Source: Bacteroidales bacterium
Lineage (GTDB): Bacteria > Bacteroidota > Bacteroidia > Bacteroidales > UBA4181
Direction: 5' to 3'
Assembly: GCA_031264715.1 (NCBI GenBank)
Contig: JAISDP010000196.1
Span: forward strand, 1-33,002
DNA: 33,002 bases
In this document: positions 3,473 to 33,002 of the stretch, piece after piece
How positions within the stretch are numbered: the stretch's first letter is position 1
How the letters are laid out: the number at the start of each line of letters is the position of its first letter
Notes under the pieces: model-generated
Told to the model about the DNA's origin: nothing
Databases searched by the model: none
Seen by the model: the letters and a program-made list of their open reading frames with translations, nothing else
Program-made: the position numbers and the translations under genes

Positions 3473-3663
3473 TTCAATTAAGTTTATTAAATTATGTGAT
3501 GCGTCGTATTAAACGGTCAAAATTACAAATTATTTCACTTCCGTAGCGCAAAGTTGCCACTATTCCTGTTATATAATAAGTTATACTGTCGTTTGTCGAG
3601 TAATTTCCCCCTGTTTAAATCTAAATTTCCGTAAAAAAACATAGTAATTTGAAAAAAAACATG

Positions 3664-30801: not shown

Positions 30802-30873
30802 TCCGGCATGAATATCCATCGGAAAATTAGCTGTAACGTAAGTATCACACATAAATTCATAATTTTATCACAC

Positions 30874-32742
30874 ATGAAAAGAATCGCCATTATTATCGTA
30901 ATCCTGTTTTTGCCGGCGTTTTTCGTTCAGGCGCAGTTGAAATATCTACAGGACGTAAAGAACCTTCCTCCCCATCCGAGGATTCTGCTGTTTGAAGGAG
31001 AAGAGCAACAGATCAAAAACAACATTGCAGCCGACCAGTCCCGGGCAAAAATACACCAGGCAATTATTGCCGAATGTGACAGGATCATCGCCAGTCCCGT
31101 TTTGGAAAGGAAGCAGGAAGGTCGCCGGCTTTTAGGCGTTGCCCGGGAAGCGCTCCGGCGGATATTTTACCTCTCCTACGCATACAGGATGGAACAGCAG
31201 GAAAAATACCTGCGCCATGCCGAAGAAGAAATGCTGGCCATTGCCGGGTTTTCCGACTGGAATCCGTCGCATTTCCTGGATGTGGCCGAGATGACCATGG
31301 CCATGGCCATCGGCTATGACTGGCTGTACGCGTCTCTGTCCGAAACATCGCGGGGAAAAATAAAGGGAGCCATCCTGGATAAAGGCATTGACCCGTCATT
31401 GAATACAGGTTATGCCTGGTTCCTGAAAGCAAAGCATAATTGGAATCAGGTATGCAACGCGGGAATTACCTATGGCGCGCTGGCCGTTTACGAAGAAATG
31501 CCCGAACTTTGCAAACTGGTGATCGACAGGGCTATTGAAACTATTCAACTGCCGATGAATGATTATGCCCCGGATGGCGCTTATCCCGAGGGTTATGGCT
31601 ACTGGGAATACGGCACAAGTTTTAATGTGATGTTCCTGAGCGCCATTGAAAAACTGCTCAATTCCGATTTCAAGCTTTCCGAAGCGCCCGGGTTTATGAA
31701 AACAGCGGAATATCTGGAACACATGTCAGGACCTTTCAATCTCTGTTTTAATTATGCCGACAATGGCCTGGGAGGAAATTTAAGTCCCGCCATTTTTTGG
31801 TTTTCATCCAAATTGAATGACCCCTCGTTATTATGGAATGAAAAGACTTATTTGCAGAGTGACAGGAGATTTACGGGAAACCGCCTGTTGCCGGCAATGA
31901 TGCTGTGGGGGAGTCATCTCAAGGTGGATAATATACCGGCGCCCAAAAAATTATTATGGGTAGGACAGGGGGTAACGCCTGTTGCTTTGATGCGTACTTC
32001 GTGGACGGATCCCAATGCGATCTATGCAGGTTTCAAGGGTGGCACAGCATCCAGCAACCATGCCCACATGGATGCCGGATCGTTCGTCATGGATGCGGAT
32101 GGTGTCCGTTGGGCATCCGATTTCGGCGCAGAAAACTATAACTCATTGGAGACAAAAGGAGTGGATTTATGGAACAGCAGTCAAAATTCACAGCGATGGC
32201 AAGTGTTTCGTTACAACAACAGGGCGCACAACACGCTGACTGTAGATGATCAGTTGCATGTCGTCAAAGGTTATGCGAATATACGCTCGGCTTCATCTTC
32301 CCCTGACTTTATGAATGTTACTTCCGACCTGAAAGAGATATATGACGGGCAGTTATCCGAAGCAGTACGCGGAATTGCTATTGTTGACAAACAATATGTC
32401 GTTGTAAGGGATGAAATCAAAACACTGGACAAAGAGAGCGTCATCCGGTGGACGATGCTCACCACTGCCGATGCGAAGATTACCGGTTCGAACAGAATAG
32501 AGCTGAGAAAAGACGGAAAGAGATTGAAACTGGAAGTTGCCGAGCCGTCCAAAATAACCATGAAGACGTGGACTTCCAAATCACCCAACGACTTTGATTC
32601 GCCAAATCCCGGCACTGTACTGATCGGGTTTGAGGTAAAAGTTCCTGCCAATACCGAAATCACTTTACTCGTAAAGTTAATTCCGCAAAGCGCAAAGAAA
32701 ACAACAGCTAAAATACCGGCATTAAATCAGTGGCCGAAATAA
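30874..32742 (+). CDS. heparinase II/III-family protein, heparinase II-like (putative polysaccharide lyase)
   Basis: Signal peptide MKRIAIIIVILFLPAFFVQAQ; HPRILLFEGEEQQIK, DWNPSHFLDVAEMTMAMAIGYDWLY, SSNHAHMDAGSFVMDADGVRWASDFG. ATG 30874 preferred. Confidence 0.88.
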   Translation: MKRIAIIIVILFLPAFFVQAQLKYLQDVKNLPPHPRILLFEGEEQQIKNNIAADQSRAKIHQAIIAECDRIIASPVLERKQEGRRLLGVAREALRRIFYLSYAYRMEQQEKYLRHAEEEMLAIAGFSDWNPSHFLDVAEMTMAMAIGYDWLYASLSETSRGKIKGAILDKGIDPSLNTGYAWFLKAKHNWNQVCNAGITYGALAVYEEMPELCKLVIDRAIETIQLPMNDYAPDGAYPEGYGYWEYGTSFNVMFLSAIEKLLNSDFKLSEAPGFMKTAEYLEHMSGPFNLCFNYADNGLGGNLSPAIFWFSSKLNDPSLLWNEKTYLQSDRRFTGNRLLPAMMLWGSHLKVDNIPAPKKLLWVGQGVTPVALMRTSWTDPNAIYAGFKGGTASSNHAHMDAGSFVMDADGVRWASDFGAENYNSLETKGVDLWNSSQNSQRWQVFRYNNRAHNTLTVDDQLHVVKGYANIRSASSSPDFMNVTSDLKEIYDGQLSEAVRGIAIVDKQYVVVRDEIKTLDKESVIRWTMLTTADAKITGSNRIELRKDGKRLKLEVAEPSKITMKTWTSKSPNDFDSPNPGTVLIGFEVKVPANTEITLLVKLIPQSAKKTTAKIPALNQWPK

Positions 32743-32757
32743 ATTCAAACGAAACCA

Positions 32758-32949
32758 TGACGGGATTTGGTCGAATGATGGAACGTTACCTGAGGGGTCT
32801 ACCGATATGCCATCCCTGACGGGATTTCCGCTACGGGGAAAAACAGGCGGTGCACGTTTTTCTACCGATCTGTCATCCCTGACGGGATTTCGCCGAATGA
32901 TGGAACGTTCCCCGTCAGGGGAACCATATCAATAGAAAAACGTGCACCG
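32758..32949. repeat. mosaic of dispersed repeat units with nested inverted repeats (REP/MITE-like)
   Basis: Two pairs of 30-mers at 28/30 identity (32798-32827/32861-32890 and 32758-32787/32880-32909). Outer 17-bp perfect inverted repeat 32848-32864/32933-32949 encloses inner 10-bp perfect inverted repeat 32877-32886/32911-32920. Confidence 0.8.
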
Positions 32950-32961
32950 ACACCCGAACCA

Positions 32962-32978
32962 AAACCTCGTAGAGGTTT
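32962..32978. repeat. palindrome AAACCTC-GTA-GAGGTTT
   Basis: 7-bp arms, 3-nt loop. A second palindrome, TCTCC-TAC-GGAGA, runs to the window edge (32990-33002). Confidence 0.75.
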
Positions 32979-33002
32979 CACATGATGAATCTCCTACGGA
33001 GA

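Follow-up and report, generated by a model that had tools for sequence, protein, structure and literature searches.

What are the 192 bases (32758-32949) that follow the last lyase gene near the end of this stretch of Bacteroidales DNA, and how did they come to be there? We found that they form a cluster of short hairpin-forming, REP-like units, which begins 12 nt past the end of a gene for a heparinase II/III-like polysaccharide lyase (Table 1; "the window" is the whole 33,002-nt stretch that was analyzed). A preliminary description, made from the sequence alone, had reported two repeated unit types, each present twice, as well as perfect inverted repeats of 17 and 10 bp and the absence of any ORF covering the stretch. 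All of this was recovered: the unit types correspond to two direct-repeat families with 89% and 94% identity, both perfect inverted repeats lie inside a longer one of 39 nt, and protein coding was rejected, as the ORFs overlapping the flagged bases are only 29-42 aa long. As single-stranded DNA, the region 32754-32953 folds at -41.6 kcal/mol (z = -4.18), and none of 200 shuffled sequences was equally stable. The repeat continues beyond 32949 up to the contig end at 33002 and thereby reaches into the initial portion of a ~149-bp composite element. The 33-kb window contains three units with a GTAG or ATAG tag, all of them within the flagged stretch.

Table 1 Positions of the repeat units, repeats and flanking gene in the window
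Feature	Position	Strand	Details
Heparinase II/III-like polysaccharide lyase gene, upstream	30808..32742	+	Flank only, outside the element
Diverged copy of block 32877-32912	32755..32790	+	Palindrome CCATGACGGG minus one pair; direct-repeat family D1, 36 nt, 89% identity
Second direct-repeat family	32798-32828 / 32861-32891		31 nt, 94% identity
REP-like unit 1	32799..32825	-	Hairpin ATCCC-GTCA-GGGAT 32812-32825; tag GTAG 32799-32802, exactly 14 nt past the loop
REP-like unit 2	32862..32888	-	Hairpin ATCCC-GTCA-GGGAT 32875-32888; tag GTAG 32862-32865
REP-like unit 3, H1 type	32907..32935	+	Hairpin GTTCCCC-GTCA-GGGGAAC 32907-32924; tag ATAG 32932-32935
Units 2 and 3 as inverted pair	32848..32949	.	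Tags outside, hairpins inside; arms include the perfect 17-bp inverted repeat
39-nt inverted repeat	32848-32886 / 32911-32949		82% complementary
Perfect 17-bp arms	32848-32864 / 32933-32949		Within the 39-nt inverted repeat
Perfect 10-bp arms	32877-32886 / 32911-32920		Within the 39-nt inverted repeat
Start of ~149-bp composite element	32907..33002	+	Truncated by the contig end
Inner hairpin of composite, AAACCTC-GTA-GAGGTTT	32962-32978		Within 32907..33002; followed by the start of AATCTCC-TAC-GGAGATT

Each unit consists of a hairpin with the loop GTCA, an AT-rich spacer, and a tag, GTAG or ATAG, placed exactly 14 nt past the loop. Across the repeat loci of the window's own genome, NTAG was found 14 nt after the loop 93 times, whereas any other distance between 8 and 26 nt accounted for 0-12 occurrences. 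The loop of these copies is almost always GTCA, their stems vary in sequence with the pairing kept, and the distance to the tag is fixed regardless of stem length. The signal may lie on either strand; on the opposite one, the tag reads CTAC and lies 5' of the hairpin.

Copies elsewhere in the genome reveal a ~149-bp composite comprising H1 with CATATCAATAGAA, the inner hairpins H2 and H3, and an inverted linker with H4; a further hairpin type, H5 with CATATCGGTAGAA, often follows. The copies cease to be homologous at the outer border of each terminal palindrome. The window differs from 13 other copies in the partner of its H5 block, which is the H1 end of the composite here and H4 in those copies; the window site has therefore been rearranged. 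Single units are also present outside the composite, and tandem copies were seen, for example at locus L011.

The possibility that the sequence is unique to this locus, raised in the preliminary description, can be set aside, as the segment has 87 matches at ~60 places in its own genome (Bacteroidota; 2.86 Mb in 349 contigs, 57% complete). The linker motif CATATYVRTAGAA occurs 182 times in this genome versus 2 for a reversed control, and the eight further species of the genus have 82, 31, 18, 10, 9, 6, 4, and 1 copies of it. Using blastn, matches were obtained in 6 of the 41 genomes searched, all within the genus. Amplification of the repeat family is restricted to some of these species. A position close to a contig end is common among the copies, as one would predict for repeats when an assembly is fragmented. 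The units share with REP elements that they are short palindromic hairpins, present in high copy number and located outside genes. The earlier REP/MITE-like reading is supported, as the stretch is a mosaic of small palindromes that is non-coding, dispersed, and amplified in particular lineages; it can be sharpened to REP-like units that were probably copied in trans by a transposase of TnpA_Y1 subclass 1.2.

Scanning named genomes for the pattern CCCGNNNGGGATGNCATATNGGTAGAA gave matches in four records from several phyla. In a Bacteroidetes MAG (L146), a 153-aa IS200-like gene carries units on both sides, in inverted orientation. Its protein matched PF01797 (84.7 bits), NF033573 (62.4 bits, with a cut-off of 55), and, by sequence, the solved ISHp608 transposase. 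Homologs of this transposase were detected in 132 of 297 genomes of the phylum, and 86 of the 91 proteins at the homologous loci that were fetched carry the signature Y---Q--HH, which defines TnpA_Y1 subclass 1.2 (Quentin et al. 2018, PMC6006769). The signature, the length of ~150 aa, and the occurrence in Bacteroidetes are those of the published subclass (PMC6006769); the commonest HUH motif among the subclass-1.2 proteins is DH[IVL]H. It should be noted that the unit pattern is also present in a Planctomycetaceae MAG (L144, ~3480-3520), with no transposase seen nearby; horizontal spread and assembly contamination are alternative explanations for this occurrence.

At the 91 loci, 922 hairpins were found within 400 bp of the gene, versus 97 in shuffles, and GTAG was located 14 nt past the loop in 105 cases; any other distance accounted for 0-7 cases, and shuffles yielded 0.2. 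The unit consensus at these loci is GTCCC-GT(T)A-GGGAC-nnATATYG-GTAG-AAA. GTAG was the tag tested first, and ATAG and GTAA were added after seeing the data; with these two post hoc tags included, 209 units were counted within 400 bp; they represent 79 of the 91 loci and 22 of 23 families. In most cases, the unit closest to the gene is inverted and its tag faces the gene (53:10 upstream and 40:16 downstream), so that these relatives show the arrangement of a REPtron, a TnpA_Y1 gene between inverted units. The density of GTAG units drops from 1.75 per kb within 200 bp of the gene to 0.25 per kb between 700 and 1000 bp; DNA of the closest relative (G004) that was not chosen for these genes has 0.013 per kb. 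These flank counts are confined to subclass-1.2 genes, as opposed to those of class 1.1 and class 2. Unit 1 of the window has the same layout as the units adjoining subclass-1.2 tnpA genes, and the tag of unit 3, ATAG at 14 nt, is the second commonest beside such genes.

This association with subclass-1.2 genes extends across the phylum: among 296 genomes, the general unit pattern was present in 47 of 132 gene-positive versus 25 of 164 gene-negative ones (p = 7e-5). Two relatives of the transposase were found in plasmid records. One, from a Bernardetia plasmid (WP_338815653.1), has two units upstream of its tnpA gene, and the other, from a Persicobacter plasmid, has no units within 1.2 kb.

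The closest known system is that of REP/REPIN/BIME sequences and their TnpA_REP (RAYT) transposases, which belong to subclasses 2.2, 2.4, 2.5, 2.7, and 2.8 (PMC6006769, PMC8266576). Both systems feature short tagged hairpins dispersed outside genes, arranged as inverted pairs and clusters and flanking a Y1/HUH transposase gene. Unlike in RAYT systems, the enzyme here belongs to subclass 1.2, which is on the IS200 side. Moreover, canonical REPs are defined by GTAG or GTGG (GT[AG]G) located 0-2 nt 5' of the hairpin foot (PMC6006769), whereas the tag lies 3' here, 14 nt from the loop. The stretch looks like a REP/REPIN system and probably works like one, while departing from canonical REPs in this one defining feature. 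According to the 2018 survey, subclass 1.2 has no REP and, as a rule, lacks IS200-type end structures (PMC6006769), in contrast to the 79 of 91 loci with hairpin and tag units seen here. As the search rule of that survey required GTAG at the 5' foot, this may be why no REP was listed. We found no report of REP-like units for subclass 1.2 in the openly searchable literature, that is, outside subscription journals and preprints.

IS200/IS605 elements such as IS608 have a related transposase and hairpins near their ends, unlike which the dispersed elements described here contain no transposase gene and show no 5' guide. When a guide of the IS608 type was looked for, none of the bases 5' of the stem showed strong covariation with the tag, and the strongest signal came from the base adjoining the tag. 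A cleavage site of IS608 is located 3' of its right-end hairpin. Among Bacteroidota genomes, mosaic non-autonomous repeats are also known as BrickBuilt, in Porphyromonas gingivalis; this element is described as a MITE with a minisatellite inside, a description that sets it apart from the repeats of the present genome (PMC4596501). The stems of 5-7 bp and the GTAG or ATAG tag led us to reject a CGTC-tagged REP, which has a terminal CGTC tag and a stem of 8-9 bp (PMC3733652).

Taken with the flank counts, we consider it likely that these REP-like units were spread in trans by a subclass-1.2 TnpA, with inverted pairs giving rise to the composites and recombination to the mosaics. In this proposed mechanism, a small single-domain Y1/HUH transposase of subclass 1.2 would read the hairpin tip and the tag jointly, on single-stranded DNA. 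It would cleave near the tag and rejoin the DNA elsewhere, allowing units and inverted pairs to spread in trans. Inverted unit pairs would then form composite MITE-like blocks, those of ~149 bp in the own genome, and recombination between shared palindromes would produce mosaics such as the flagged stretch. Recognition, single-strand cleavage, and copying are proposed here by analogy with IS200/IS605 and REP systems (PMC8266576), and we infer that the own genome had, or still has, a cognate gene.

The preliminary description had also suspected a RAYT or IS200/IS605-family transposase. This is supported by the relatives, many of which have a PF01797 gene flanked by such units; no intact one was found in the 57%-complete assembly of the own genome. 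There, neither an intact gene of the subclass-1.2 type nor a RAYT (PF01797) was found, and the only trace is a decayed remnant of a Y1 transposase C-terminus, with stops and frame changes (G000:C272:4466-4540; L183, ~1460-1560). No intact gene of this kind was found either in the species with 82 linker motifs (G002, 93% complete), and window-type units are missing beside the intact genes of G004 and G008. Within the genus, copy number did not correspond to PF01797 genes. Over 296 genomes, the presence of at least 5 unit copies was not linked to gene presence (p = 0.83), and a narrow unit pattern, scanned in 297 genomes, showed no clear link (9 of 132 gene-positive versus 6 of 164 gene-negative). 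One family (f47; e.g., G096, G265, G111, and G193) has 20-50 pattern matches and no subclass-1.2 gene at E <= 1e-10, and its copies seem to persist without the enzyme. We infer that unit copies may outlive the enzyme or that the gene may have been lost from the assemblies.

These results bear on the reading that the units are immobile fossils whose enzyme has been lost, the mosaic being kept and reshuffled only by homologous recombination and replication slippage at shared palindromes. We regard this as possible, with somewhat less than an even chance. It accommodates the lack of an intact transposase in both the own genome and G002, the joining of the window's H5 block to the H1 end rather than to H4, and the tandem copies. 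However, recombination alone does not spread copies to ~60 different sites, so an earlier active phase is needed, and a repeat-flanked gene is easily missing from short-read assemblies such as this one, which is 57% complete.

A classical MITE, in which a DDE transposase would recognize the ~30-bp imperfect terminal inverted repeats of the ~149-bp composite and no Y1 enzyme would be involved, is unlikely. The recurrence of copies with inverted ends and the limits of homology at the outer palindromes are what such an element would give, but single units outside the composite are not, the layout of hairpin and tag at 14 nt is the same as beside Y1 transposase genes, and no target-site duplication was recognized on inspection. 

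A comparison of empty sites in relatives had been suggested in the preliminary description. The element is absent from the orthologous flanks examined in the closest relative (G004, ~80-95% nucleotide identity); these cannot serve as clean empty sites, however, as synteny breaks at the same place and the neighbors differ. No exact empty site with both flanks was found among the orthologous flanks examined, which, like the results on gene presence and copy number and the lack of a recognized target-site duplication, counts against the spread in trans proposed above.

A role mainly at the RNA level, in which the hairpins would form 3' ends or stabilize transcripts (that of the preceding lyase gene, for instance), is very improbable. 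In its favor, the cluster starts 12 nt past this gene, and REP hairpins stabilize mRNA in Escherichia coli. Against it, no Rfam family scored above threshold (only a chance match to mir-85, far below its threshold, was obtained), homologs of the lyase from G002, G007, and G008, three further species of the genus, have no repeat past the stop codon, and the fixed tag distance, on both strands and beside transposase genes, is a better fit to protein-DNA recognition.

Returning to spread in trans by TnpA, a broader proposition, which we also hold to be fairly probable, is that subclass 1.2 mobilizes its own phylum-wide class of REP-like units, the window included, with a 3' tag at a fixed 14 nt measured from the hairpin tip. 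If true, class 1, the IS200 side of the family, would have a REP-transposase partnership, and a transposase subclass published without a substrate would gain a likely one. It would also explain a large class of Bacteroidota hairpin repeats and would provide a simple searchable rule, namely a hairpin with a tag 14 nt from the loop. It further suggests that such repeats can attain high copy numbers and outlast the intact enzyme.

Other repeats were observed in the course of this analysis. In the closest relative, a different tandem repeat, GGGTTTCCATCGACGGTGGAAAGGCAAAACATTTTTGAAAA, fills an intergenic region that holds composites in the own genome (L113, 13600-14400; G004:C10). At locus L182 (140-400; G003:C73), a Y1 transposase C-terminus is directly followed by different repeats, GTCCC-TGC-GGGAC adjoining TTAATAAAGTRTC, and this repeat is also present in a Prevotellaceae MAG (L147). 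Finally, a 251-aa open frame runs through repeats at locus L032 (773-1525), so gene finders may call false proteins there.
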